A DNA stretch of 30,857 nt, taken from positions 1-30,857 of IMG/VR virus record IMGVR_UViG_3300021197_000319; one strand, given 5' to 3'. This document shows, one piece after another, positions 763 through 24,291 of the stretch. Within the stretch, counting starts at the first letter, position 1. Each line of letters starts with the position of its first letter. The DNA is from a virus. The notes below the pieces were generated by a model that saw only the letters and a list, made by a program, of their open reading frames with translations, was not told the DNA's origin and ran no database searches. A program made the translations under genes and the position numbers.

Positions 763-998
763 CAAAAGAAGATATTTTAGAAGGTGCATCAGATATAGCA
801 CTAAAAGCTAATGGACTTGATGATGCAATCATAGGACTTACGCAATATGGTTTGATAATATATGACTACAACAAATGTATTGATATATTTATGAAAGAAA
901 ACGATTGGGATTATACTGAGGCAGTAGAATGGATGGAATTTAATGTTCTAGGTTCTTACAATGGTTCAGGCTCACCAATTTTCTTAATCAATGGATAG
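759..998 (+). CDS. Small conserved-type phage protein between terminase genes
   Basis: 79 residues, translationally coupled to the gene before (ATGA overlap) and overlapping the large terminase start by 8 nt. The C-terminal half (YTEAVEWMEFNVLGSYNG then SPIFL) matches my memory of a small protein of unknown function found in many phages, often as a separate ORF. No catalytic residues, membrane segment or signal peptide are visible. Its tight coupling suggests it is made together with terminase. I cannot assign a function. Confidence 0.6.
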   Translation: MTKEDILEGASDIALKANGLDDAIIGLTQYGLIIYDYNKCIDIFMKENDWDYTEAVEWMEFNVLGSYNGSGSPIFLING

Positions 999-2418
999 GG
1001 AAACTAGAAAACAATTTTTAAAAGCAATGGAGAAGGCTCTTTGCGAAAAGTCCTTCTATGACTTCTTTGTAAAAGCATTTCCCATAGCAGAACCATCAGT
1101 ACCCTTATCAACTAACTTCCACCATAAATATCTATGCGATATATTACAAGCAGAAGCAGAAAGAATAATCGCAGGTAAAAAGAAAGGCAAAGATATAATT
1201 ATTAATATACCCTTTCGTAGCACAAAGTCATTACTTGTAACAGTTATGTTTCCTGCATGGTGTTGGGCAGTATATCCCAAGATGAGGTTTATCACAGCAT
1301 CATATTCAGCAGAGATTAGTATAGAACACGCAACAAAGTCAAGAGATATAATACAAAGCGAGTGGTTTCAATCTCATTGGGGAGAAACATTCCACATTAA
1401 AAAAGACCAAAACCTAAAAGCTAGATACGAAAATAATTTTCTTGGAGTTAGGAGAGCAACATCAGTTGGAGGTACTGTAACAGGACAGGGTGGTGATATA
1501 ATTTTAGTCGATGACCCTACATCACCAAAAAATGCTGCATCGGAAACAGAAAGAGATAACGCCAATGAATGGTATAAGTCAACACTATATTCAAGACTTA
1601 ACAATCCAACAACAGGAATTAGAATAATAATTATGCAGAGAGTACACGAAGATGACCTTAGTGGCTACCTGTTATACAACTCTCCTGACAAGCATGAGCA
1701 TATTTGCATACCTGCCGAACTTTCTAGCGACCTAAAGCCATCAACTTTAGCAGAACACTATGAAGATGGTCTTTTTTGGAAAGAAAGATTTAGTAAAGAG
1801 ATTCTTGATGACTATAAGTCAGCACTAGGCTCTTATGGCTACGCAGGACAGCTACAACAGCGACCAACACCTGCCGATAGTGGTATGATACAAAAAAATT
1901 GGTTCAAAATTGATGATGAGAAGGTAGATGGAGTAGTAAACTTCGTTATTGACCCTGCATATACTGCAAGTCAAAAAAATGACCCCTCAGCATTGATGGC
2001 TTACACCTTTGAAGATGGTAAATGGCAAATTAGAGAAGTACAGACAGTAAGATTGGAGTTTCCTGACTTAGTAAGGCACATAGGAAAGTTTGTAAACAAA
2101 AATGGATATACTAGCCAATCAAAGATATTTGTAGAACCAAAAGCAAGTGGTAAGTCAATAGTACAAACTCTTGTGAGGGAAACAGGATTGAATGTTAAAG
2201 AAGATAAGCCACCGACCAAAGATAAAGTGGCTAGAGTACAAGATATTTCTGCAACTGTGGAAACAGGTAGGGTATCTTTGCTAAAAGGTCATTGGAATGA
2301 AGAATTTTTGATGGAATGTCAACAATTTCCTGCTGCAAAGCACGATGATATGGTCGATTGCCTTGTTATGGCTCTAAATAGACACTTTACAGGTGGTAAA
2401 GTAATGTATTTTGGCTAA
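991..2418 (+). CDS. terL: Terminase large subunit (ATPase and nuclease)
   Basis: 475 residues, normal for a large terminase, the motor that pumps DNA into the prohead and cuts it. The N-terminal ATPase has a Walker-A-like loop PFRSTKS at 74-80 (a variant, with R-S-T-K in place of the classic GxGKS) and a Walker B block DIILVDD at 169-175. The C-terminal RNase-H-like nuclease shows the expected acidic residues: D321 (VIDPAY), E382 (FVEPKASGKS) and D452/D453/D456 (KHDDMVD). The ATG at 991 overlaps the preceding gene by 8 bases. The gene is followed by a 70-base gap before the tail block. Confidence 0.95.
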   Translation: MDRETRKQFLKAMEKALCEKSFYDFFVKAFPIAEPSVPLSTNFHHKYLCDILQAEAERIIAGKKKGKDIIINIPFRSTKSLLVTVMFPAWCWAVYPKMRFITASYSAEISIEHATKSRDIIQSEWFQSHWGETFHIKKDQNLKARYENNFLGVRRATSVGGTVTGQGGDIILVDDPTSPKNAASETERDNANEWYKSTLYSRLNNPTTGIRIIIMQRVHEDDLSGYLLYNSPDKHEHICIPAELSSDLKPSTLAEHYEDGLFWKERFSKEILDDYKSALGSYGYAGQLQQRPTPADSGMIQKNWFKIDDEKVDGVVNFVIDPAYTASQKNDPSALMAYTFEDGKWQIREVQTVRLEFPDLVRHIGKFVNKNGYTSQSKIFVEPKASGKSIVQTLVRETGLNVKEDKPPTKDKVARVQDISATVETGRVSLLKGHWNEEFLMECQQFPAAKHDDMVDCLVMALNRHFTGGKVMYFG

Positions 2419-2488: not shown

Positions 2489-2857
2489 ATGGATGAAATT
2501 AAGGGTATAAACCAAGCTCACACTAAAATCTTGAATGATTTTATAAAATATGTCCAACAACAGACATATATCATGACAGAGAACTGTGAAGATGGCAAAT
2601 ATCAGGATTTCGAGGAAGTTATGGAAGATGTTTTCGCATATTATGTTGATTTCAAGAAATATGCTGTAAAAGATGAAGATGGAGTAGAAGAATGGGTGTA
2701 TATGTTGCCTAATCTACTAATGTACTCATTTTTAGGCTTTTTAGCAGGTATAAAAAGTAAAAAAAATTACAGACTTGTAAATAAAATTGAAATTAATGTT
2801 GTTCAAGCTACAATGGAAACAATAGGCTTGATTTCAGATATGTATAAAAACGACTGA
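2489..2857 (+). CDS. Hypothetical protein, first gene of the tail block
   Basis: 122 residues, mostly helical by composition, with an acidic N-terminal half and a hydrophobic stretch at about 73-87 (LPNLLMYSFLGFLAG). That stretch could be a buried helix or a membrane segment. It sits between the large terminase and the frameshifted chaperone-like pair, 1 base before the latter. No motif is recognised. Its position suggests a tail or head-completion role, which is inference only. Confidence 0.6.
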   Translation: MDEIKGINQAHTKILNDFIKYVQQQTYIMTENCEDGKYQDFEEVMEDVFAYYVDFKKYAVKDEDGVEEWVYMLPNLLMYSFLGFLAGIKSKKNYRLVNKIEINVVQATMETIGLISDMYKND

Positions 2858-2858
2858 T

Positions 2859-3500
2859 ATGTTGAAAATAACCATAAACAAAAAGGATTATGACATTCCT
2901 AATATGTGGAATGAGATGACCTTAGATTATTACATTGGTATCTATGCTATAATTAAAAAATATCAAAGAACCAAAGAGCAAGAGGAAGCTGACAAAGGGA
3001 AAGACCTTTCTAAGTTTTTCTTTGTGCAAGAAACCAAAATGTATCGAGAGCTGTTTATTTATATGACAGGGATTGATGAGGCTACTATGGATAGAGTTCC
3101 AATGGAAGATGTTGAAGCTGTACTCCAATGCCTAGATAACATTATGGAAGAATATAAACCAAAAGGTATAACACATTTTAATTTTGACTTTGAAACCTAC
3201 TATTTTCCTATGGATTTCCTAAGAACAGGAACTTTTGGTGAATATATAGAGGCAAGTCAGCTAGAAATGAATACAGAATACCTAAAAAATGGTAGATTTG
3301 ACATTTTGCCTGAACAAATGGCTATTTTATGTAAAAGAGTTGATGAAGAAGTCGATTTAGACGACATTGACGAAAAAGCAAAGTCATTTAGGAGATTAAC
3401 TATGGACATCGTATGGGAGTTCGCTTTTTTTTTGAACAATCGGTCGATAAAATCTCTAGAAGTTATGCAAACATTTTTAGGAGTGGAACAAAAAGCATAG
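2859..3500 (+). CDS. Tail assembly chaperone-like protein, short form (gpG analogue)
   Basis: 213 residues. The gene has the layout of the lambda G/GT pair, which coats the tape measure during tail assembly. The zero-frame product ends at 3500, but near its 3' end a run of nine T (3425-3433) in the codons GCT TTT TTT TTG permits a -1 shift into the frame that ends at 3721. The protein is helical and acidic, with LPEQMAILCKR near residue 150, in line with chaperones of Bacteroidetes phages as I remember them. The tape measure lies unusually far away, about 8 kb downstream. The alternative is an unrelated gene with a fortuitous overlap. Confidence 0.65.
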   Translation: MLKITINKKDYDIPNMWNEMTLDYYIGIYAIIKKYQRTKEQEEADKGKDLSKFFFVQETKMYRELFIYMTGIDEATMDRVPMEDVEAVLQCLDNIMEEYKPKGITHFNFDFETYYFPMDFLRTGTFGEYIEASQLEMNTEYLKNGRFDILPEQMAILCKRVDEEVDLDDIDEKAKSFRRLTMDIVWEFAFFLNNRSIKSLEVMQTFLGVEQKA

Positions 3501-3721
3501 CAGTAGCAAAGTCAAGCAGAATAATGAAGCCATACGGATGGCTAAACACATTGTATGATGTGGCGATTGATGGAGTATTTACAAAAGATGGTAAAGATGC
3601 CATGCAAAGCGTAAAAGACGAGAAATTATATAAGGTACTTACTTATGTATCTTGGAAAACAGCAAAAACAGACTATGAAATTGCTGTTAACGAAGAACAG
3701 AGTAAGCAAATAAAAAAATAA
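3413..3721 (+). CDS. Frameshift extension of the chaperone (T part of a gpGT-like fusion)
   Basis: This frame is -1 relative to the upstream gene and overlaps it by 88 nt. Read as a fusion from 2859 with a -1 shift at the T9 run, the product would be about 287 residues. The unique part is basic (SKSIAVAKSS-like stretch, then KTAKTDYEIAVNEEQ). An independent start at ATG 3413 is possible, but there is no ribosome-binding signal in front of it and its first residues would be the slippery sequence itself. That makes fusion the simpler reading. It ends one base before the next gene (3723). Confidence 0.6.
   Translation: MGVRFFFEQSVDKISRSYANIFRSGTKSIAVAKSSRIMKPYGWLNTLYDVAIDGVFTKDGKDAMQSVKDEKLYKVLTYVSWKTAKTDYEIAVNEEQSKQIKK
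3425..3434 (+). promoter_or_regulatory. Probable -1 ribosomal frameshift site (T9-G)
   Basis: Zero-frame codons are GCT TTT TTT TTG from 3423. Both T-TTT-TTT and T-TTT-TTG fit the X-XXY-YYZ rule for -1 slippage, and the -1 frame stays open to 3721. It joins two ORFs at the place and direction known for tail assembly chaperones of lambda-like phages. No obvious downstream pseudoknot was found by eye. Confidence 0.65.
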
Positions 3722-3722
3722 A

Positions 3723-4910
3723 ATGGCATTTAATAAGCTAAGAGATTTAAGAGATAGGTTTGAACAAAAATGGATAAATGGTGGATTTATCTTTGGTTAC
3801 GAGAACGAAATCAATGAAAACCACAACAATGACTATCCATTACTACTTGTTTTACCACCTACCTCAGAATTACCATCAGCAGAAGGAAGTAGCAATGAAA
3901 GATACACTTTTGAGTGTTTAATCACAAAACCTTTCTATCAAAACCAATCAGGTTCTCTTGATGTAGTTTTTTCACTACTTGAGCAAGAGGCATTGAGTTG
4001 GTTGGGAAGTGTTTTAGATAGCTACCCAAACAAAGAAGTAATACTTAGTCCTGACAGTATAATTGTTGAACGAGAAAAAGAACTATATAACGACAAATTG
4101 ATACAAGTTAGGTTAGAATTTACTTTGGATTGCTTTTCACACAACTTTTCTTTTGTTGATGAGGTATCAATTACGGAACTATCCCCTTTAGTATGGCTTA
4201 GAAGCGATATGGGTATTAAAACACAATTTAGTGGGGGTACTGAAGTAGTAACAAAATGGATTGACCAAAGTGGTAACGGAAATCACTTTGAGCAAACCAC
4301 AACAACAAAAATGCCATCTTATGTATATGAATCATCAGATAATGGTTATCCTGAGTTAGATTTTGATGGCTCTAATGATTTTATGTCTTGTGTAAACACA
4401 GGAATAAATGCAGGAACAGGTATAGCAGGAGAGCATACTATTGTGTGGGTTGCAAAAGCAGATGCAACAGATTCACAAACATTCTTCTTATCCAAGTCAA
4501 ATGATGGATTACCAATACAAAGATTTTCTGTTATGGTAAATGTAGATTCGTCTAACAACATTTGGCAGGTAGAACATTTTGATGGAGTATCAAGTGGTAA
4601 TGATAGCACAAGAGTTTTTGACAGCAGCACCTTAGCAACAACAACCACAGTTAGAACAGTAAACTTTCATAACAAAACTGCAAAGTTATTTAAAAACGGA
4701 ACTTTAGTAGCTACCAACACAAGCTCTAGCTTTGATGAACCTAGCAACTATGGAGTAGGTAGAAAAATACATTTAGGGTCTGATGATGATGGAACAGATA
4801 AGTTTTTTAATGGCTCAGTACAAGAAGTTATGATATTCAACTCAAAACTGAGTGAGTCAGAAATAGTAACAGTAAGTGATTACTTACAGCATAAATACAG
4901 CATAGCATAA
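3723..4910 (+). CDS. Tail protein with C-terminal LamG/concanavalin-like lectin domain
   Basis: 395 residues in two parts. Residues 1-150 (GGFIFGYENE, then PLLLVLPPTSELP, then VRLEFTLDCFSH) look like a phage tail-completion type beta domain. Residues 155-395 form a LamG/ConA-like beta-sandwich, with SPLVWLRSD, WIDQSGNGNHFEQ, LDFDGSNDFM and a closing VQEVMIFNSKLSESEI, all typical of this fold in Bacteroidetes proteins. Such domains bind glycans, so it may touch the cell surface. It follows the chaperone pair at 1 base and leads into the next gene by TAATG. The N-terminal assignment is a guess. The lectin-like fold is well supported. Confidence 0.7.
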   Translation: MAFNKLRDLRDRFEQKWINGGFIFGYENEINENHNNDYPLLLVLPPTSELPSAEGSSNERYTFECLITKPFYQNQSGSLDVVFSLLEQEALSWLGSVLDSYPNKEVILSPDSIIVEREKELYNDKLIQVRLEFTLDCFSHNFSFVDEVSITELSPLVWLRSDMGIKTQFSGGTEVVTKWIDQSGNGNHFEQTTTTKMPSYVYESSDNGYPELDFDGSNDFMSCVNTGINAGTGIAGEHTIVWVAKADATDSQTFFLSKSNDGLPIQRFSVMVNVDSSNNIWQVEHFDGVSSGNDSTRVFDSSTLATTTTVRTVNFHNKTAKLFKNGTLVATNTSSSFDEPSNYGVGRKIHLGSDDDGTDKFFNGSVQEVMIFNSKLSESEIVTVSDYLQHKYSIA

Positions 4911-7222
4911 TGGCACAAGTAAATTTTCAAGATAGACCTTTAGAAGATATAGCAGTATCAGCACATCAGCCGATAAAGTTTACAGTTAGGGTAAAAGGTT
5001 CAGGTGCAGCAGATATGAGAAAGTACAAAAGTGTTGACTTTCTTATAACTCCTGTAAATCAATACACAGGAGAAGATGAAACAGACAATCAAGTTAGTAT
5101 CAGAGTACAACATAGTCCTGTAATACACGACACAGTAAATTCAATATACAATGATGATGATGCTTACAGATTTTTTAGTTTAGATATAAGTTCTATATGT
5201 AGAGATTTTTTATCTTTTGACTTGAGAGCTTGTACGCAAGATACATCTGCTGTTGTTCAAAGAGATATAACACAGTCTATGACAGCGACAAAACTTTACA
5301 AGAAGTTTAAGATTACTGCTGTTCCTGAAAAGCTAGAGGGTAGTACATTAACCAAAATTACAGCAGAATCAGTTGATTCAACAGTTGTAGCTGCAAATGT
5401 TGCCTTGTCAGATGAAGAACAAAACACTTACGCACTAGGTGATTTTCTTTTTGATGGTGATACAGTTGTTGAGCAGAACTCTGAACTGCACAATGCTTTC
5501 ACTCACGATTATAAGCACTACACCAACAGCACAGGTGGTGGAACTGCTAAATATCTTACTATGAAGCCAAATCATAGAATCATAGGTACAGATGAATGTG
5601 AGTATCTAACATTTATAGCTAGAGAGCTAGATAATAAACCTATTGATGTAAGAGTGATATTCTACGATAGTAGTGGTAATGCACTAAAGACAGGTTTTGA
5701 TGATAATGATGGAGATAGTAATGATGAAGATTTTTACTATGAGATACAATACTCTCCTGATGGTGCAGGTAATTATAGTGCAGGATTTACTGTGTTATCA
5801 CATGGTGGAACATCATCAGATAGTGAATTTGAAGACCCTGAAATAGCTATTGCACAGATAGGTGTAGGAACAAGAAATATAACAGAAGCTAGAAAAGGAT
5901 TTATAAACTCTAGCGAAGGGAAACAAAAGTTTGGAACTGTATGGGATAATATATCTTACTACACAGTACAAACATTAGAGGGTGGAACAACAAAAGCAGT
6001 TGGTGAACTATTAACATATCATATAGACCACGAATCAGATAGAAAAAAATACGAGGCAAGGTCAGTAAGATTTCATTGGCAAAGTAGAATGGGTGGTATA
6101 GATAGCTATACTTTTGATGGTTTGGCTACCGAAAGTATCAGCACATCTTCTAAAATGTATGAAGAAACTATATATCCATTCTTTCAGTCAAGACTTAGAG
6201 AAGTTAGTGCATTAGGCTTGGGAGCAAATCCTAATGTAAAAGAAACATTTGGAACGCTTCCCAACAGAGTTGGTGGTCTTACATCAGATGAATATAGAAG
6301 TGGCTCTAAATCGCAGGTAAAAGCCTTTAGACAAGGTCAAGCAGTATCAAGACCATATCCAATAGGAGAAAGGTTTATGATGGAAGATTTACTTTCCTCT
6401 CCAAATGTATGGATAGAGAGAGGTTGGAAGGGTAGAGATATATACTTTGACAACTTCAGTAGCTATGCTAACAAAGCAGAACTAGCAAATAGTTATACTA
6501 TTGCAGGTGATGCAGATGATGACATTACATTTTTAACAGGTGAAGACCCATTATCAGGAACTAAATGTTTATCGGTAGGTAACAATTCAGGTACGGATTT
6601 TGCACAGATAACATTCAACACATTCATTCCGATAGATACTAAAAAGATATATAGGTTTGAGATAAGAGTTAGGAAAGTTTCAGGAACTAATGGAACTTAC
6701 TTTGGTCATAACGAGTATAATGCAAGTCAAGCAAACAACCTAAAATCAGGTAGTGCAGATAATTACTTTCAATACCCTGCTTTAGCTGATGGTGATAGTA
6801 GTGAGTTGATTGTAAATTCTGCTGATTGGTTTTCAGGAGTAGGAGTTTCAGATGTTTCAACTGTTGGAGAATGGTTGATTTTCACAGGATATGGAAGTGG
6901 AGAACAGTTGCTAACTCAATACAATGACAATAGAAGAAGTCCAAACGAACCAATGCTGTTCATTGAGGGAACTAAATTTATAAAGCCATTTATTCTTGCA
7001 AACTACAATACAGGTGCAGGACAAACATTGGTTGATTATGTTAAGATAACAGAGTTTACTAGCGATGTTCCAAATATACATAATAATTACAGTACATTGA
7101 ACAAACACTACTATGTTCCTGTAAACATCAAAGATGGCTCTAATGAAACATTTACAAGCGAAGGTCAGTCAAGCATGACCATAAACTATGTTGAAAGCAA
7201 ACAAAAAAGAACAATAGATTAA
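4910..7222 (+). CDS. Large tail-tip or baseplate protein with carbohydrate-binding-like module
   Basis: 770 residues, beta-rich, starting by TAATG overlap. The first 150 residues (FQDRPLEDIAVSAHQPIKF onward) look like a structural tail domain. Residues about 500-715 form a jelly-roll-like region (IYFDNFSSYANKAE, then IDTKKIYRFEIRVRKVSG, then VDYVKITEF) of the type seen in CBM4/9 or galactose-binding-like modules. It lies between two other large tail proteins and probably belongs to the adsorption apparatus at the tail tip. No enzymatic residues are recognised. The module is assigned by fold-like pattern, not by a match to a named family. Confidence 0.6.
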   Translation: MAQVNFQDRPLEDIAVSAHQPIKFTVRVKGSGAADMRKYKSVDFLITPVNQYTGEDETDNQVSIRVQHSPVIHDTVNSIYNDDDAYRFFSLDISSICRDFLSFDLRACTQDTSAVVQRDITQSMTATKLYKKFKITAVPEKLEGSTLTKITAESVDSTVVAANVALSDEEQNTYALGDFLFDGDTVVEQNSELHNAFTHDYKHYTNSTGGGTAKYLTMKPNHRIIGTDECEYLTFIARELDNKPIDVRVIFYDSSGNALKTGFDDNDGDSNDEDFYYEIQYSPDGAGNYSAGFTVLSHGGTSSDSEFEDPEIAIAQIGVGTRNITEARKGFINSSEGKQKFGTVWDNISYYTVQTLEGGTTKAVGELLTYHIDHESDRKKYEARSVRFHWQSRMGGIDSYTFDGLATESISTSSKMYEETIYPFFQSRLREVSALGLGANPNVKETFGTLPNRVGGLTSDEYRSGSKSQVKAFRQGQAVSRPYPIGERFMMEDLLSSPNVWIERGWKGRDIYFDNFSSYANKAELANSYTIAGDADDDITFLTGEDPLSGTKCLSVGNNSGTDFAQITFNTFIPIDTKKIYRFEIRVRKVSGTNGTYFGHNEYNASQANNLKSGSADNYFQYPALADGDSSELIVNSADWFSGVGVSDVSTVGEWLIFTGYGSGEQLLTQYNDNRRSPNEPMLFIEGTKFIKPFILANYNTGAGQTLVDYVKITEFTSDVPNIHNNYSTLNKHYYVPVNIKDGSNETFTSEGQSSMTINYVESKQKRTID

Positions 7223-9981
7223 TGAGAGAGATTAGAGTAGAGCTTAGGGATTTTGATGATAAGATTCTAGGAGATATTGACATCATATCAAGTGATGACT
7301 TTCCTTTATCTTTAACTTTTCAAAACTTTGATGTTAGAAGTTTAGATTCTAGGGGTGGTAGTTTTAGTAAGACATTTAAAGTTCCTGCAACAAAAAAGAA
7401 CAATAAACTTTTTAATCACATATATCAAAGTGGTAATACTGACAAGAAAACAGTAAGAAAAGATATTCCTGCTTGTATATACTCTAATAATGTTCCTATC
7501 CTATATGGTAAGCTAAGAGTTAGTAAAGTTATCAAAGGTAAGAAGCCTATTGAATACGATTGTATATTTTTAGGAGATAATATGGATTGGGCAAACTCAA
7601 TCAAGAACCTTGACTTAAAAGATTTAAGATTTAGTAGTGCAGCTTATAATAACTATTCAGACATAAGCGATGGCACAGGAAGTAGCTACGCATTTACTAA
7701 TGTTCAAGATTTAGGAGAAAATCCTGATAATCCTTTTAGTCATTCAGGTTATGTTGAGAACCACGACAAACTTGTTTTCCCTTTACTTTCTGTTGGTGAG
7801 GGTATAAGTCCAAAAGATAATGTAACAGATTTAGAATTTGTACCTTGCTTATATCTTAAAAATGTTTGGGATAAAGTATTTCAAGCACAAGGCTATGAAG
7901 TAGAAAGTACATTTTGCGAAAGCGACTATTTCAAATCTTTGCTTATACCATTGAACTTTGAAAGAACAGGTGAGCAAGTAAACACTAGAGGTGGTAAGAT
8001 TACAAAGACAGATTCAGAGGAACTAGTAGCACACTATTTTCACGCTGCTGAAGGTACATCACAAGATGATGATAATGAAGCTAGAGCAGCAGGTTCACCT
8101 GAAATAAATAGTAGATTCGGTAGTGTTGATTCTTCTGATATAGATGCAAATCTAGGTCTTTCTAACACACAGTTTGCTAGATATGTATTTAGAGGTAATG
8201 AATCAGAAGATGCACAAGATGTAACATCAGGAGATGCAGATAACGGAAATGTACAGGCTGTACAATCACCTTCTGATGGTATGACTATGTTAGTTGTAAA
8301 TGAGAGTGGAAGCCACGAAATAAGTTGGAATATAAATACAAAAGTAGGAACAACAGAGTTTGCAAATGCAGGTGGAGATACAACTCTATATTTAAGATTA
8401 AGAGCAGAGATTTGGAGAACAGAAATGACAGATACTCCAAATGATTTGTATTGGGATTCTGCACTAGAAGCACAGACTAGACAGCAAGGTTCTAGGTTGA
8501 TGTGGACTGATGTTGTTGCTTATGACATATCGGATGATGCATCTCCTGCGTTCTTTAATGTAAACTTTAGTGGCTCTTTTAATACGCAATCCACAAATAC
8601 AAGTGAATCATACATATTTACAATAATGCCTGAAATAGATGACTATCCTAGTCAAGATGGTGGTATTTTAAAAGCATCTTTTGTAGATGGAACTTTTGAA
8701 GTTAGTGGTTCAAATGAGTATTCTATTGGTGAAGATATTACTGATGTTCATCACTTACTGCCAAGAGCATCACAAGCTGACTTTATTATAGGAACAGCAC
8801 AAATGTTCAACCTTCAGTTTAGAACAGATGCAGCAGAGAAAAAGGTTTATGTAGAGCCTTATGACCACTTCTATAACTTTGACAAGCCATACGATTGGAC
8901 TGACAAAATAGATTACTCTAAAAACATAAGTGAAGAATTTATTTACGACATAAAATCAAAGCTAGAGTTCAAATACAAAGATGCAAGTAATGATGGATTC
9001 ATAGAAAGGTTCAATAAAAGAAATGATGTTGACTATGGTTCTTACGAGGAACTAGACAATACAGGTCAGTTGATTGATGGTATAACTAAATATGAGAATA
9101 AGTTTTTCTCTCCATCTTTTAACTTTTTAGAGCCTGATTATATTGATGATACACAAAACAATACTAGTGCTGTAAACATTCCTTTCATACCTCTTTATCA
9201 TACAGAGGCAAGTGATTTAAATAATAGTGTTACAGCAGAAAGAGCAGAAAAGAGTTTTGATATTGGTTCAAGGGTTTTGCTTTTAAATGCAGAGAATACT
9301 AATGAATCAGGAACAGCAAGAAGTGTTGGTTATGCAGGTGAATCAGGAGGAACGCAAAAATACCATAAATGCGTAGATAATGTATTGAATGGTTCAAGTG
9401 CATTGACAGAAAGATACCCAAAGGCTTTCTTTAATAATCCTTGCGTTTCTATAAAAAATACATCAACAGGTGTGTACACAGATTCAGCAGGTTTAAGCAT
9501 TGGAACTTACGATGGTGTTGAAAGATTTGTTGACCAAAACCTATCTTATGGTAGAGTAAAATTGAAAGGTGCATTTACTTCAGGTTCGCAGTTAGTTGTA
9601 AAGCAATACACTTTAGATGGTCTATTCCACACTTTCTTTAGTCTAATGATAGCACAGTTAAGAGCAAAGCCAAGATTGAAAACAATGAATGTAAATCTAA
9701 CTTATGCAGATATATGTAACCTAGATTTTAGAAAGTTGGTTTTCATAGATGGTGTTTATCACAGGATAAATAAGATAGTTGATTTCAAACCACATCTCAA
9801 AGAAAGCACAAAGATAGAGTTGCAAGAGTTCTTTGATTTAGGACAAACACATCAGAGCTTTGGTAATCTATCTACTTTAGATTTAACAAACATACATTCA
9901 ACAGGTGCAGCACAATCTATACTTGATGTAGAAGAAGCATCAGGAGAATCAGAACATAATTTTAGCAACTTGAGTTTATAA
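7222..9981 (+). CDS. Tail hub or tail-associated baseplate protein
   Basis: 919 residues, one of the two largest proteins here. The start (IRVELRDFDDKILGDIDIIS) and the stretch SRGGSFSKTFKVPATKKNN are typical of Bacteroidetes phage tail proteins. Around residues 515-560 the pattern QADFIIGTAQMFNLQFRTDA followed by VYVEPYDHFYNF resembles hub proteins that ring the tail tip. The C-terminus (about 785-870) returns to a compact domain (LVVKQYTLDGLFHTF, FIDGVYHRINKIVDF). It overlaps both neighbours by TAATG. The assignment to hub rather than another tip component is inference. Confidence 0.6.
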   Translation: MREIRVELRDFDDKILGDIDIISSDDFPLSLTFQNFDVRSLDSRGGSFSKTFKVPATKKNNKLFNHIYQSGNTDKKTVRKDIPACIYSNNVPILYGKLRVSKVIKGKKPIEYDCIFLGDNMDWANSIKNLDLKDLRFSSAAYNNYSDISDGTGSSYAFTNVQDLGENPDNPFSHSGYVENHDKLVFPLLSVGEGISPKDNVTDLEFVPCLYLKNVWDKVFQAQGYEVESTFCESDYFKSLLIPLNFERTGEQVNTRGGKITKTDSEELVAHYFHAAEGTSQDDDNEARAAGSPEINSRFGSVDSSDIDANLGLSNTQFARYVFRGNESEDAQDVTSGDADNGNVQAVQSPSDGMTMLVVNESGSHEISWNINTKVGTTEFANAGGDTTLYLRLRAEIWRTEMTDTPNDLYWDSALEAQTRQQGSRLMWTDVVAYDISDDASPAFFNVNFSGSFNTQSTNTSESYIFTIMPEIDDYPSQDGGILKASFVDGTFEVSGSNEYSIGEDITDVHHLLPRASQADFIIGTAQMFNLQFRTDAAEKKVYVEPYDHFYNFDKPYDWTDKIDYSKNISEEFIYDIKSKLEFKYKDASNDGFIERFNKRNDVDYGSYEELDNTGQLIDGITKYENKFFSPSFNFLEPDYIDDTQNNTSAVNIPFIPLYHTEASDLNNSVTAERAEKSFDIGSRVLLLNAENTNESGTARSVGYAGESGGTQKYHKCVDNVLNGSSALTERYPKAFFNNPCVSIKNTSTGVYTDSAGLSIGTYDGVERFVDQNLSYGRVKLKGAFTSGSQLVVKQYTLDGLFHTFFSLMIAQLRAKPRLKTMNVNLTYADICNLDFRKLVFIDGVYHRINKIVDFKPHLKESTKIELQEFFDLGQTHQSFGNLSTLDLTNIHSTGAAQSILDVEEASGESEHNFSNLSL

Positions 9982-10961
9982 TGAAGATAACAGGTAAATT
10001 TAATAATCAAAAGAAACTACAAGACCAAAAGTCAGGAGGCAAAATATATTGCACTATTGATAGTGTTTTGCAGGAAGTTGTTTACGAAAGACAAGACAAC
10101 AACAATGAGTATTATTATGATTGTGTTGTTAAGACTAATCAGAACAAATCACTAAATCAATTAGCTCTTTCAGCAAAACCTACATTATCTAAAAGTGTAA
10201 CTGAAACTGTTACAACAACAACAACAACTCCACAAGAGGGAACTGTTACTACAACATCATCTGTTACAATATCACCACAGTTGGTATTTGATTATACAAA
10301 CCTAGTTAGGTCATCTAGTGGTAGTGTTGAGAGATGGAAAAGTTCAGTAAAACAAAACTTTCTTTCTCAATCAACAAGTGGAGATAGACCTGCTTTAGGA
10401 AGGTTTGGTGGTGGAGTGAATGGTCAATCACCATTATTCTTTAATGCAGAAGAAGGAGATTTTATGTCTTTAAACTCTGCTGTAACCTTATCAGGAGATT
10501 TTACTATGTTCTTTTATTTAGAACCAATAGCAAACCCTGAAATAAAATATGTAAGGTTATTGGGAAAGAGTGATGACAATGATATGTTTTTATCTATTGG
10601 TGAATCAGCAAACAACACTTATGTTATTAGCTTTGCTTCAGGTAGTGGAACAGCGTTTGGTTCTACCTCAACATATTTTCAACCAAGCACATCAAAGTTA
10701 TTGATTACAATACAGAGAAGTGGTAACAACATTATCATAAGAGAGAATGGTGTTGCTCTAACTCCTGTTAGTTCTCAAGCTATTACTAATCCAACTTCTG
10801 ACTTTGTGTTTGACCAAGTAGGTAAAAAAGGCAATAGAACTGATTTCTTTATGAATGCTTCTTTGTTTCATTTTTCTGTTTATGATGGTTTCATAGATAG
10901 CAATCTTACAAGGCTAGAGCAAAGTATAATTAAAAATGCAGAATCAGCAAAAGGTATATGA
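9981..10961 (+). CDS. Tail protein with a second LamG-like lectin domain
   Basis: 326 residues. Residues 1-65 form a small N-terminal domain, and residues 65-100 are a Ser/Thr-rich linker (TETVTTTTTTPQEGTVTTTS). Residues 103-326 show a LamG/ConA-like sandwich: PQLVFDYTNLVRSSSGSVERW, the FFNAEEGDFMSLNSAVTLSG block, GDFTMFFYLEP, and a closing LFHFSVYDGFIDSNLTRLEQ. Tail LamG domains commonly bind surface sugars, so this is a receptor-binding candidate along with the protein at 3723. It overlaps the next gene by ATGA. Confidence 0.65.
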   Translation: MKITGKFNNQKKLQDQKSGGKIYCTIDSVLQEVVYERQDNNNEYYYDCVVKTNQNKSLNQLALSAKPTLSKSVTETVTTTTTTPQEGTVTTTSSVTISPQLVFDYTNLVRSSSGSVERWKSSVKQNFLSQSTSGDRPALGRFGGGVNGQSPLFFNAEEGDFMSLNSAVTLSGDFTMFFYLEPIANPEIKYVRLLGKSDDNDMFLSIGESANNTYVISFASGSGTAFGSTSTYFQPSTSKLLITIQRSGNNIIIRENGVALTPVSSQAITNPTSDFVFDQVGKKGNRTDFFMNASLFHFSVYDGFIDSNLTRLEQSIIKNAESAKGI

Positions 10962-11443
10962 GTAAGATAAAGAAAACATTAAAAGAAGCAGGAAAGATAT
11001 TGGCTAATGCTTTCTCTAAAGAGTTAGAAGCTCAAGGACACAGAGCATCTTCAACAAACAGTATCATTGATAGTTTTAGAGTAAAAGCTACTGATAGGTT
11101 CGTTGAGATTACTACTGATAAGTCCTATGCAAATATTTTGGAAACAGGTATTAAAAAAGGTGGAAAGTTTCCCAATAGAGAGGCGATAGAAGATTGGGTA
11201 AGAAAAAAAGGATTTGCTAGAAATGAAACAGAAATAAAACAGATAGCTTATGCTGTCGGTTTGAAGATACAAAAAGAGGGAGTTCCTACAAACGAAAGTT
11301 TTAGACACTCTACAAATGGCAGAAGAATAAAATTTATTGACCAAGTAGAAAAAGAGAATAAAGATAAGATAATAGAAATGATTGATAATGCTGTTGCATT
11401 TGATATAAATTTAATGTTTAATAAACTACCAAAAGAAGTATAA
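10958..11443 (+). CDS. HK97 gp10-like tail-completion protein
   Basis: 161 residues, helical-beta, matching the HK97 gp10 family that joins or completes the tail. Features are the N-terminal helix KTLKEAGKILANAFSKELE, the core YANILETGIKKGG, and the typical IEDWVRKKGF followed by an Ala/Ile-rich helix (IAYAVGLKIQKEG). It starts by ATGA overlap and ends by TAATG overlap with the tape measure. In most phages this gene lies between portal and tail tube, so its place right before the tape measure is unusual and part of the rearranged order seen here. Confidence 0.7.
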   Translation: MSKIKKTLKEAGKILANAFSKELEAQGHRASSTNSIIDSFRVKATDRFVEITTDKSYANILETGIKKGGKFPNREAIEDWVRKKGFARNETEIKQIAYAVGLKIQKEGVPTNESFRHSTNGRRIKFIDQVEKENKDKIIEMIDNAVAFDINLMFNKLPKEV

Positions 11444-14229
11444 TGGCAGAGAATAAAACTGTATATAGGATTGACATTCAAGGTAATGAAGAACTTATTA
11501 GGTTAAGAAAAGAACTTGATACCTACCAAAAGTCTTTAAAAAAACTTAGAGATGCAACCAAAAATTCTGAGGAAATAACAGAAAGTCAGGCTCAAGAGTT
11601 TAGTAATTTAGAACTTAGTGTAAAGAAAACTCGTTCTGAGTTTAACAAGGCATCCAAGTCTATAAAAGGAATGAATACCACAACCAAAAAAGGTGTTGGT
11701 TTTATTGGTAAGATGGCAGGTGCTATGGCTGCTGCAAACATTGCTACTACTGCGTTTACAAGAGTGGTTAGTCTTTTGACAAATGCTGTAAAAGAAGGCT
11801 TTACAACATTTAAGGATTTTGAATTTCAAATGGCTAGAGTAAAAGCCATATCAGGTGCTACTGATGAGGAATTTAGAAAACTTAAAAACTCTGCACAAAT
11901 TTTAGGTAGAACAACATTCTTTACAGCATCTCAGGTAGGTGAACTTCAACTTAACTTATCTAAACTTGGTTTTAATACAGAAGAAATACTACAATCACAA
12001 GAAGCTATACTTATGCTTTCCACAGCAATGGGGGAGGACTTGGGTAGAACTGCTACTGTTGTTGCAGCATCCATTAGAGGTTTTGGTGAAGATACAAGTC
12101 AAACAGGTAGGTTTGCAGATGCAATGGCTTCAGCTTTTGCTAACTCTGCTCTTGATATTGAGAAGTTTCAAACATCAATGACTAAAGTATCTGCTATTGC
12201 TGCCACAGCAGGTTTTAGTTTTGAAGAAACAACAGGCTTACTTGCATTACTAACAGACAGAGGTATTGAAGCATCTATTGCAGGTACATCGCTTCGTAAT
12301 ATATTTCTTAAACTACAAGACCCTACATCTGACCTTTCACAAAAGCTAGGAAGAACTGTTCATTCAGGAGAGGATTTGATTGTTGCACTTAGAGAACTTG
12401 ATGCTTCAGGTATTGATGTTGCAGGGGTGATGCAAATCGTTGACAATAGACAGGTACAGGCTATGGAATCCTTTATAAGAAGTGCTGATGCTATTGAACA
12501 TTTTAATAGAATACTAAATGATGCAGCAGGTTCAGGTCAGAAAATGGCAGATGTTATGGAAGATACTGTCGGTGGTGCTATGTTAAAACTTAAATCTGCT
12601 TACGAAGGTTTTATTTTAACCATATCAGAGGGTGGTGGTGCTTTACAAGAGTTTTTTGAAAATCTAGCATTTGGTTTTAACTTTTATGCAAATCAGTTTG
12701 CTAGTGCTCAACAAAGGTCTAGTGGTATAGTGGCAAAGGCAAACAAAGATACAAAAGCTATACTAAAAGACCAAGAAGAAGCATTAAAGCAGTTTTCTGA
12801 AAATGAACAAAAAATTTATAGAAGAACTCAATCTCAGGTCATGCAAACTGTTCTTGAAGGCATGGAAGATAGAACAGCATTCTTGGAAGATGAGGTGAAA
12901 AGGACAGAGAAAAGGTCTATGTTTTTGTTTTTTAACAAGGATAGTAAAGATGCTAAAGAAGCTAGAAAAAATTTAGAAGCACACAAACTAGCTGTTCAAG
13001 ACTTTTCTAATATGGTTATTGAGCAATCTAAAAAAGAACAAGATGCTGAAAAAGAAAAAATTAAGTTAGAGAAGGAAAAAGCAAAAAATGCTGCAAAACT
13101 TAGTGAACAACTTAAAAAACTTCAAGAAAGACAGCAGGAGTTAGTTGATGTGGGTGATAACTTAACCGAAGCAGGTTTAAAAGAACTTACACTTACAAAT
13201 CAACAAATAAAGGCTATTCAAGCTCAAATAAAAGCACTTCAAGATTTAGGAGTGGAAAAGGATAAGCAAAAGGTGATTGGAGATGCAACTGCACTACAAG
13301 AGTTGGATATGGCAATAGCCAATGAAAGAATGAGCTTACAGCAACAATTTGCCGATGGAGAAATAAAAACAAAAGCTGAACTGAACCAAAAGCTAAAGCA
13401 GATGGAAATAGACCATTTACAGTTTGTTTTAGACCACAATATGGTTCATGGTGATGAGTTGATAAAAGTTCAAAGAAGATTGGCAAAAGCAAAAGCTGAT
13501 GTAATAGGCGAAGAAGAAAAAACAGATATTGACAGAATTGCACAGATGAAAGAAACAGGCAAACTGTTGATGGAAATAGGTAGAGCTGAGGGAGAAAACA
13601 GCAAGATAAAAGAGGCAGGTATTAAAATTACACAAGCTGCTGCTGTTGCTGAAGGAATCAGAGGTCTTATAAATGCACAATCAAGTATAACAAAACAAGG
13701 TATTGGTGGCGACCCATTTAGTGCTTTTGCTAGAGTTGCTGCTATGGCTGCAATGATGGTTTCTGTTATTGCAAACATTAAAGGATTACTTGGTGGTTCA
13801 GGTGGAGTTAGAGGTGGAGAAAGAGGCGAAGGAAGTTTCTCTCCAACTGTATCACAGTTTGCTGAGGGAGGACTTACAAATGGTGGTATGTTCAAGGGTG
13901 CATCTCATGCTAATGGTGGTGTGAAGTTTAGAGTTGGTGGTAGAATACACGAAGCTGAAGGTGGTGAGGCTATCATAAATAAGCGTTCCACAGCTAAGTT
14001 TAGACCAATACTATCTGCTATAAACTCATACAACGGAAATGGTGTAAAGTTTGCTGAGGGTGGATTAATATCATCAGGAGAAAAGTTTGCTATGGGTGGA
14101 GAACTTAGAGGTGTACAAGAGCTTATAAATGGCTCTAACGGAGGAACACAAAGAGTTGTATTAGTAGAGAGTGATGTTACTGCAACTCAGAACAGAGTTA
14201 GCAACATTGAAAGTCAAGCCACTTTTTAG
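11443..14229 (+). CDS. Tail tape measure protein
   Basis: 928 residues, consistent with a siphovirus tail of moderate length (rule of thumb about 1.5 Angstrom per residue). It carries the TP901-type core at about 130-290 (FQMARVKAISGATDEEFRKL, LGRTTFFTASQVGELQLNLS, SAIAATAGFSFEETTGLLAL). Residues 85-118 form a hydrophobic segment, and residues 440-720 are rich in heptad coiled coil. The C-terminus has glycine-rich repeats (FAEGGLTNGG, EGGEAIIN, FAEGGLISSG) usual for this family. It sets tail length and passes through the membrane during DNA entry. Antisense ORFs within it are shadows of coiled-coil codons. Confidence 0.93.
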   Translation: MAENKTVYRIDIQGNEELIRLRKELDTYQKSLKKLRDATKNSEEITESQAQEFSNLELSVKKTRSEFNKASKSIKGMNTTTKKGVGFIGKMAGAMAAANIATTAFTRVVSLLTNAVKEGFTTFKDFEFQMARVKAISGATDEEFRKLKNSAQILGRTTFFTASQVGELQLNLSKLGFNTEEILQSQEAILMLSTAMGEDLGRTATVVAASIRGFGEDTSQTGRFADAMASAFANSALDIEKFQTSMTKVSAIAATAGFSFEETTGLLALLTDRGIEASIAGTSLRNIFLKLQDPTSDLSQKLGRTVHSGEDLIVALRELDASGIDVAGVMQIVDNRQVQAMESFIRSADAIEHFNRILNDAAGSGQKMADVMEDTVGGAMLKLKSAYEGFILTISEGGGALQEFFENLAFGFNFYANQFASAQQRSSGIVAKANKDTKAILKDQEEALKQFSENEQKIYRRTQSQVMQTVLEGMEDRTAFLEDEVKRTEKRSMFLFFNKDSKDAKEARKNLEAHKLAVQDFSNMVIEQSKKEQDAEKEKIKLEKEKAKNAAKLSEQLKKLQERQQELVDVGDNLTEAGLKELTLTNQQIKAIQAQIKALQDLGVEKDKQKVIGDATALQELDMAIANERMSLQQQFADGEIKTKAELNQKLKQMEIDHLQFVLDHNMVHGDELIKVQRRLAKAKADVIGEEEKTDIDRIAQMKETGKLLMEIGRAEGENSKIKEAGIKITQAAAVAEGIRGLINAQSSITKQGIGGDPFSAFARVAAMAAMMVSVIANIKGLLGGSGGVRGGERGEGSFSPTVSQFAEGGLTNGGMFKGASHANGGVKFRVGGRIHEAEGGEAIINKRSTAKFRPILSAINSYNGNGVKFAEGGLISSGEKFAMGGELRGVQELINGSNGGTQRVVLVESDVTATQNRVSNIESQATF

Positions 14230-23012: not shown

Positions 23013-23402
23013 ATGAGTATTTTGGGTAAAATTTTTAGTAGTGGTGCAAAAGATTTAGTTGATAGTGTTGGAAATGCTATTGACAAGATGCACACATCAT
23101 CAGAGGAAAAAGAGCTTATAAAAGCTGAAATAAAAAAAACTATATTAGACTATGATTACAACATTCAAAAAGAAGTTACAAAGCGTTGGGAGGCAGATAT
23201 GCAGGGTAATTGGCTTACTAAATCCATTAGACCCTTATCACTCGCCTTTCTTTTACTCGTACTTACTGTGTTTACTCTTGTTGATTTTGGGTTCGTAGGA
23301 CTAGAAATCAAAGATTCTTGGGTAGATTTATGGCAACTTTTAAGTTTGACAGCCTTCGGTGCATACTTTGGAGGTAGGTCATACGAAAAAATTAAGAAAT
23401 GA
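23013..23402 (+). CDS. Holin of the 3TM family type
   Basis: 129 residues, like holins of the GTA/3TM group: a soluble helical N-terminus (about 1-65, with EEKELIKAEIKKTILDYDYN), then the conserved RP at 73-74 in SIRPLSLAFLLLVLTV, hydrophobic stretches at about 75-95 and 105-122 (LWQLLSLTAFGAYFGG), and a short basic tail. Holins form the membrane lesion that lets the endolysin out. ATG 23013 follows an ATAAGGATAAGGAT purine-rich leader. Good pattern fit; exact family by memory. Confidence 0.7.
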   Translation: MSILGKIFSSGAKDLVDSVGNAIDKMHTSSEEKELIKAEIKKTILDYDYNIQKEVTKRWEADMQGNWLTKSIRPLSLAFLLLVLTVFTLVDFGFVGLEIKDSWVDLWQLLSLTAFGAYFGGRSYEKIKK

Positions 23403-23443
23403 TTTGTTTTGTAGTTTTCTTTTTAGTAGTTTTATAAATCTTT

Positions 23444-23461
23444 ATATCCGTTCTAGGATAT
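23444..23461 (+). promoter_or_regulatory. Hairpin between holin and phosphoesterase
   Basis: ATATCC at 23444-23449 is the reverse complement of GGATAT at 23456-23461 with a 6-nt loop. It lies in the 136-base gap 3' of the holin. Role unknown. It may be a first element of the terminator region that ends at 23513. Confidence 0.3.
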
Positions 23462-23485
23462 TCTGTCTAGTGTTTAGTTAAATTT

Positions 23486-23513
23486 GGGGGTATTTGCATA
23501 CTCCCATTTTTTT
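23486..23513 (+). terminator. Strong intrinsic terminator
   Basis: GGGGGTAT (23486-23493) pairs with ATACTCCC (23498-23505; one G-T pair) around TTGC and is followed by A and seven T (23507-23513). It ends the lysis transcript and lies just before the phosphoesterase gene. A TTG start at 23494 for the next gene would fall in the loop, which is why ATG 23539 is preferred. Confidence 0.85.
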
Positions 23514-23538
23514 GTTTATATTGCGAAAAATTTTCATT

Positions 23539-24291
23539 ATGAAACAATTTAGACCTAGACTATCTAAAAAGGAATATGAAATAATACAGCAATATAGAAG
23601 TGGTAACGCTGTGGGTATCATTGGAGATACGCATGAGCCATTCTGCCACCCTGATTACAGGAATTTTTGCTATGAAGTATTTGATAGGTTTGGTGTTTCA
23701 CAAATTGTACATATTGGAGATGAAGTTGACAACGCAGCTCTATCGTATCACGAGAAAGTAATAGAGATGCCTAACGCAGAAAGCGAAGCAGAACAGGCAC
23801 AAAAAGCTATGGAGAAATGGTATGCTACCTTTCCTGATGTTAAGGTCTGTGTTGGTAATCATTCTGCACTACCATTTAGACAGGCAACAACAGCAGGTAT
23901 TCCTAAAAGGTTCTTGAAGTCTTATGAAGAAATATGGAACGCACCGAAAGGTTGGAAATGGGAACTGCAATGGGAGATTGATGGTGTTCTATATGAGCAT
24001 GGAACAGGAAGTAGTGGTGCTAGAGCAGCAGTTAATAGAGCAACTGCAAATAGACAATCAACTGTTATAGGTCATTGCCATTCCTTTGGTGGTGTAAACT
24101 ATATGGCTTCTCGTAGTGATTTAATCTTTGGAATGAATGTTGGCTGTGGCATTGATGTAGATGCTATGGCATTTTCTTATGGTAAAAACTTTCCTAAAAA
24201 GCCAACTCTTGGCTGTGGTGTAGTTCTTGATGGTGGCAAGACTGCACTATTTATACCTATGGATTTGGGTAGTAAAATTTCTCGTATCTAG
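23539..24291 (+). CDS. Calcineurin-like metallophosphoesterase
   Basis: 250 residues when started at ATG 23539 (the TTG at 23494 lies in a terminator loop). The two-metal signature is complete: D30-T-H32 in GDTHEP, G60-D61 in GDEVD, G106-N107-H108, H154 in YEHG and G178-H179-C180-H181. Enzymes of this fold act on phosphate esters of nucleotides, nucleic acids or proteins. The substrate here is unknown. It forms its own unit between a terminator and a new promoter. A TATATTG word precedes it by 16 nt. Confidence 0.85.
   Translation: MKQFRPRLSKKEYEIIQQYRSGNAVGIIGDTHEPFCHPDYRNFCYEVFDRFGVSQIVHIGDEVDNAALSYHEKVIEMPNAESEAEQAQKAMEKWYATFPDVKVCVGNHSALPFRQATTAGIPKRFLKSYEEIWNAPKGWKWELQWEIDGVLYEHGTGSSGARAAVNRATANRQSTVIGHCHSFGGVNYMASRSDLIFGMNVGCGIDVDAMAFSYGKNFPKKPTLGCGVVLDGGKTALFIPMDLGSKISRI

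Follow-up and report, generated by a model that had tools for sequence, protein, structure and literature searches.

A gene pair in the tail region of a probable marine phage is, as judged from comparison with its relatives, almost certainly expressed by means of a programmed frame switch. It is located in the window, a term used here for the whole stretch of DNA analysed, i.e. a 30,857-base virus record of IMG/VR. Ordinary decoding leads to a protein of 213 residues, designated A, and a -1 switch at a run of nine T residues (T9) leads to a second protein of 287 residues (192 + 95), designated A-B, so that the two predicted products would share their first ~192 residues. The explanation we consider best, with a probability of roughly 0.58, is that this switch is driven by the length of the T9 run and that A and A-B act like the gpG/gpGT pair of phage lambda.

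The T9 run is read GCT TTT TTT TTG in the frame of A, which places both T-TTT-TTT and T-TTT-TTG in phase at positions 3425-3433. The -1 frame is open from position 3392 to a stop codon at 3719-3721, with 285 nt of sense codons following the run. A sequence-only reading of the same DNA had predicted a -1 frameshift at these two heptamers, an open -1 frame of about 290 nt beyond the slip site, and products of 213 and about 287 residues, all of which is borne out by the counts. An ATG of the -1 frame located 12 nt before the run (position 3413) presents a separate ORF of 102 residues to a gene caller. The coordinates of the relevant features are compiled in Table 1. For the terminase large subunit (TerL), the best cultured relatives are found in phages of Croceibacter, Cellulophaga, and other Flavobacteriia, which makes a Bacteroidota host likely for the window phage; a scan of genome contigs for host identification returned no relative. 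The product of the gene 3' of B matches phrog_10356 (E 2e-20) and PF13385 (E 4e-11) and may be a terminator-like protein fused to a lectin domain. The region 9981-10961 resembles this gene by eye and has no library match.

Table 1 Features of the window relevant to the A/A-B gene pair, with the evidence for each (AF2, AlphaFold2)
Feature	Position	Strand	Evidence
Terminase large subunit (TerL)	991-2418	+	phrog_38, E 4.4e-98
122-residue protein directly 5' of A	2489-2857	+	No family match
ORF A, 213 residues, product of ordinary decoding	2859-3500	+	80+ relatives; pN/pS 0.26 before the run
ATG of the -1 frame; probably misleads gene callers and is not a used start	3413-3415	+	ATG at the same position in 23/155
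GAG TTC codons just before the run, fixed at synonymous sites in the T9 clade	3417-3422	+	
T9 slippage site, GCT TTT TTT TTG in frame 0	3425-3433	+	T9/T10 in 155/155 close and 37/37 remote relatives
-1 extension (domain B), 95 residues 3' of the run and a TAA stop	3434-3721	+	pN/pS of the B-only part 0.22; AF2 model
Stretch coded in both frames (A tail and B start)	3434-3500	+	pN/pS 0.51 (frame 0) and 0.47 (-1 frame)
Gene 3' of B: N-terminal part of unknown family, C-terminal LamG/ConA-like domain	3723-4910	+	
Tail tape-measure protein	11443-14229	+	phrog_1533, E 6e-57, and other tape-measure families

Searches of cultured phages by tblastn with A and B of the window gave no match, and many relatives of both were found in viral contigs. 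After removal of duplicates, 155 distinct sequences showing the junction constitute the set of close relatives, designated superclade I. The queries used to collect relatives included motifs of the B domain, which do not select for a T run, and one locus that starts inside the run region was left out of the set. The run consists of nine T in 137 of these sequences and of ten in the remaining 18, which form a divergent clade with the extra T located upstream; runs of eight or eleven T do not occur, and the 3' end of the run has the same phase in 155/155. Because a sequence coding for Ser-Phe-Phe-Leu is expected to contain T9 with a probability of 0.38 from codon usage alone, a single T9 carries little weight, and it is the conservation over 22 clusters with less than 60% amino acid identity (or 11 with less than 50%) that counts. 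The pN/pS values determined for A before the run, for the B-only part read in the -1 frame, and for the overlap in either frame (Table 1) show B to be a coding sequence whose reading frame is -1. In one relative (L038, positions 6561-7722), the stop codon of B is lost, unlike in the other relatives, and the -1 frame continues into the next gene for 387 codons; this may represent a real fusion or an assembly error.

More remote relatives were found via a structural model. A search with the AlphaFold2 model of A (pLDDT 78) retrieved, among many unnamed proteins, gp38 of Nonlabens (Persicivirga) phage P12024S and gp10 of Flavobacterium phage 6H. In P12024S, gp38 directly follows TerL and carries a T9 run at positions 23578-23586, which is followed by a -1 ORF whose separately annotated end is gp39. 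Both gp38 and gp39 (positions 23136-23830) are annotated as hypothetical, and the late ATG assigned to gp39 omits the first third of the B domain. Together with its relatives in contigs, P12024S forms superclade II, which comprises 37 distinct sequences, 36 with T9 and one with T10. Profile comparison by hhalign supports homology between superclades I and II for A (97.9%, E 5.5e-13) as well as for B (97.1%, E 5.7e-11). Moreover, the portal protein of the window matches the portal family of P12024S (phrog_33693), and the order TerL, A/B, ..., tape measure, protease, major head protein, and portal is common to the window and P12024S. Run, open -1 frame, and extension are thus kept in every complete relative; an in-phase slippery sequence combined with a conserved extension frame, by which a programmed -1 switch is recognized, is present in 192 of 192 sequences. 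No relative was found in which the two ORFs are separated by a non-slippery sequence, the very arrangement that the sequence-only reading had named as speaking against it; the -1 joining of two ORFs put forward there is strongly supported by the comparison.

In the Duneviridae (phages FPSV-F7, laban6-1, and Ingeline; phrog_25418), A and a C-terminal part form one ORF of 293-301 residues. Its A part is homologous to that of superclade II (hhalign 93.8%, E 1.7e-7); for its C-terminus, the hhalign comparison with B of superclade II did not support homology. These single ORFs show that a protein of the A-B type is made in nature. Phage 6H was considered as a second kind of split gene and rejected as such, since its relative FPSV-F7 has one uninterrupted ORF: gp10 of 6H (positions 10044-10927) is split, and the FPSV-F7 counterpart, which is 98.9% identical over the first 186 residues, is a single ORF of 293 residues. 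The split in 6H may be due to a mutation or to a sequencing error.

Two explanations would dispense with a frame switch. B could be a separate gene starting inside A, either at the ATG at position 3413 or at an equivalent TTG or GTG elsewhere, and it speaks for such a start that an NTG invariably occurs 12 nt 5' of the run and happens to be ATG in the window. This NTG, however, results inevitably from conserved Val-Trp codons, and it is ATG in only 23/155 close relatives, a share lower than the usage of the GTA codon from which it arises. The other 132/155 lack any ATG of the -1 frame 5' of the run, on which ground an independent start at 3413 was rejected, and superclade II likewise has none in the part of the -1 frame that is open ahead of the run. 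In addition, the T9 run would have no reason to be kept if B were started separately, and the Duneviridae make A-B as one protein. A separate start of B is therefore very improbable. Even less weight, practically none, is given to a sequencing error, a phase-variable DNA tract, or a chance open frame. Errors arise easily in homopolymers, whose length can also vary, but 192 distinct sequences from independent assemblies agree, each clade has a constant run length, and purifying selection acts on the extension.

The next question is which property of the run is under selection. With the heptamer bases numbered T1 to T7, the run extends from T1 to T9 (or from T0 to T9) in superclade I and from T0 to T8 in superclade II, which corresponds to a shift by one base. 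The ninth base in superclade II is changed from T to A, by which Leu is replaced by Tyr in frame 0 and Phe by Leu in the -1 frame; at the 5' end a T was gained, and codon 0 changed from Ser, Ala, or Gly to Val, Leu, Ile, or Phe. The flanking residues thus differ between the superclades and a run of at least nine T is kept in all 192 sequences. Since a heptamer needs only seven T and length is kept while residues change, selection appears to act on homopolymer length. The case for selection on length and not on the heptamer is strong as far as sequence comparison goes, but not conclusive, as protein constraint could explain part of it: Phe-Phe in frame 0 is invariant, the -1 frame encodes Phe-Phe-Phe or Phe-Phe-Leu, and hydrophobic residues carry T at the middle codon position.

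An A/T homopolymer of about nine or more residues with conserved length, as expected of a transcriptional slippage site, is what is observed. Nine is the length at which avoidance of such runs appears in many bacterial genomes, and runs of 9A or 9T have been treated as slippage-prone (Baranov 2005, PMC1088944). Avoidance was also evident when the coding sequence of 73 representative loci, 453 kb in total, was compared with codon-shuffled genes: runs of at least nine A were seen 6 times (~44 expected), with a sharp change between eight and nine, and T8 runs were seen 5 times (14 expected). Outside the A gene, runs of at least nine T were seen once with ~2 expected, counts too few to tell avoidance. 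As long runs are avoided elsewhere in coding sequence, the fixed T9 of the A gene stands out.

These observations bear on the agent of the switch, for which RNA polymerase and the ribosome come into question. RNA polymerase would realign on the nine template A residues and sometimes add a U, and ribosomes would then read the messages with the extra U straight into the conserved B domain. We favour slippage of RNA polymerase with addition of one U as the probable agent, because at least nine T are kept across the one-base shift, no conserved RNA structure accompanies the run, and runs of at least nine A are avoided. The alternative is classical -1 ribosomal frameshifting on T-TTT-TTT (and T-TTT-TTG in the window clade) without downstream structure and possibly helped by a GGGAG motif, which is a serious candidate of clearly lower probability. 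T-TTT-TTT is in phase inside every T9 run, i.e. in 192/192, so that the sequence as such is just as compatible with slippage of the ribosome; the latter could simply be promoted by longer U runs; and for the tail chaperone switches examined to date, the ribosome is the agent (review PMC5009743). Seven T would suffice for this mechanism, however, yet the minimum is nine everywhere, even after the one-base shift. T-TTT-TTG is ruled out as the sole site, as T1 is invariant and superclade II lacks this heptamer. The in-phase heptamers of the sequence-only reading were recovered, whereas slipping of ribosomes on a heptamer, which its -1 frameshift would imply, fits the data less well than selection on a length of at least nine.

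Signals in the vicinity of the run were also analysed. A pseudoknot-free structure model applied to 73 sequences detected no RNA structure up- or downstream of the run beyond that of shuffled or control stretches (mean z -0.1 to -0.2; downstream -0.2), and a hairpin before the run as well as a structure after it were rejected as candidate elements. A constraint at the nucleotide level was detected in the T9 clade, in which the two codons preceding the run are GAG in 132/137 and TTC in 135/137 sequences. In the subset used for codon usage, either codon occurs in 74/75 sequences, with family usages of 0.33 (GAG) and 0.17 (TTC), and other invariant Glu and Phe codons of the same gene show mixed codon choice. 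Avoidance of stop codons was considered as a reason for TTC and found insufficient, as TTC persists even in front of GCT or GGT. An ATC a few codons before GAG TTC is also enriched. The fixed GAG creates GGGAG, a Shine-Dalgarno-like sequence 8 nt before T-TTT-TTG, which could serve as an internal stimulator of ribosomal frameshifting, and the fixed GAG-TTC resembles a cis element, which would be superfluous for simple slippage of the polymerase. GAG-TTC is not kept in the T10 clade or in superclade II. Against a function of GGGAG in ribosomal frameshifting, this motif is missing from the same two groups, and Shine-Dalgarno sequences are not recognized by Bacteroidia ribosomes (PMC9976891), which applies if the host belongs to the Bacteroidia, as TerL suggests. 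Polymerase slippage and ribosomal slippage are not mutually exclusive.

Lambda G/GT-type chaperones bind the tape measure and the tube protein and are absent from the virion. That A and A-B act as a tail assembly chaperone pair of this kind is quite probable, and many copies of A with fewer copies of A-B would help tail assembly, as in the case of lambda gpG/gpGT. Helical proteins in a short and an extended form, encoded in the tail region, correspond to the pattern of a chaperone pair: the AlphaFold2 model of B consists of four helices (pLDDT 78), the model of A is also helical, and Foldseek weakly matched A (prob 0.89, E 0.055) with an entry of BFVD that bears the name tail assembly chaperone. 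As in G/GT, the -1 switch is predicted from comparison to give two products, the longer of which has a conserved extension. Less probable is that, with the switch being real, A/A-B has a different role, namely that of a neck, connector, or tail protein whose C-terminal domain is optional. In favour of such a role, A and B have no match to an annotated chaperone family, a Pfam family, or a PDB structure (a PDB fold search and a second look with VIA gave chance-level matches only), some relatives fuse A and B permanently, and the B end is separated from the start of the tape-measure gene by 7.7 kb with five genes in between. Apart from the pattern described, it speaks against this role that no other chaperone candidate was recognized in the window, in which many genes are without assignment. 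The gap of about 8 kb to the tape measure, regarded as unusual in the sequence-only reading, is therefore real, and A/A-B is not located between the major tail protein and the tape measure, directly 5' of the latter. The proposed lambda-like pair is compatible with the gene neighbourhood, with the helicity of the models, and with the weak match by structure, but it has no family-level match and no adjacency to the tape measure; A/A-B appears to work like G/GT and can be regarded at most as a candidate member of that family.

Among known systems, lambda gpG/gpGT and the corresponding pairs of HK97 and many other tailed phages likewise comprise short and -1-extended products with a common N-terminus and a conserved extension, encoded in the tail region. 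They differ from the system described here, which has a run-length-conserved T9/T10 instead of a variable heptamer, follows TerL and one small gene instead of lying beside the tape measure, and shows neither a match to an annotated chaperone family nor a stimulatory structure. Thermus dnaX, Shigella mxiE and related genes, and IS elements also contain at least nine identical A/T residues; as in the present case, the run is kept where similar runs are avoided, and an extra or missing base leads to a second frame (Baranov 2005, PMC1088944). Those are, however, cellular or IS genes, whereas the present one is a phage virion-region gene known from sequence alone. The nearest cultured relatives are gp38/gp39 of P12024S (NC_018271) and the single-ORF fusions of the Duneviridae. 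The former pair has a homologous A after TerL, a T9 run, and a homologous B in the -1 frame within the same gene order, but the run is shifted by one base (xTT TTT TTT TAT) and the two parts are annotated as unrelated hypothetical proteins; the latter (phrog_25418) has a homologous A upstream of the tape measure and, unlike the window, one continuous ORF. The frame switch itself is of a known kind, and its occurrence as a run-length-conserved T9 in a phage tail-region pair of two remote superclades appears to be new. Our literature search, which lacked most subscription journals, revealed no report of such a site and, apart from reviews and predictors, no paper linking tail chaperones with polymerase slippage.

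Ribosomal recoding is classically illustrated by frameshifted tail chaperone pairs. In the phages considered here, what is conserved appears to be the length of the homopolymer, and the hosts probably possess ribosomes that ignore Shine-Dalgarno sequences, for which reason the usual bacterial stimulators may be unavailable. We tentatively propose, at somewhat short of an even chance, that a large marine phage lineage (probably infecting Flavobacteriia) sets the ratio of a tail-assembly pair by polymerase slippage on T9/T10 and not by ribosomal frameshifting. Gene callers overlook the B domain or assign a wrong start to it in all these genomes, and the cultured pair P12024S/P12024L makes the mechanism directly testable. 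If polymerase slippage is true, the same morphogenetic outcome would be reached via a different molecular step, with the ratio of the two proteins being set at the RNA level.
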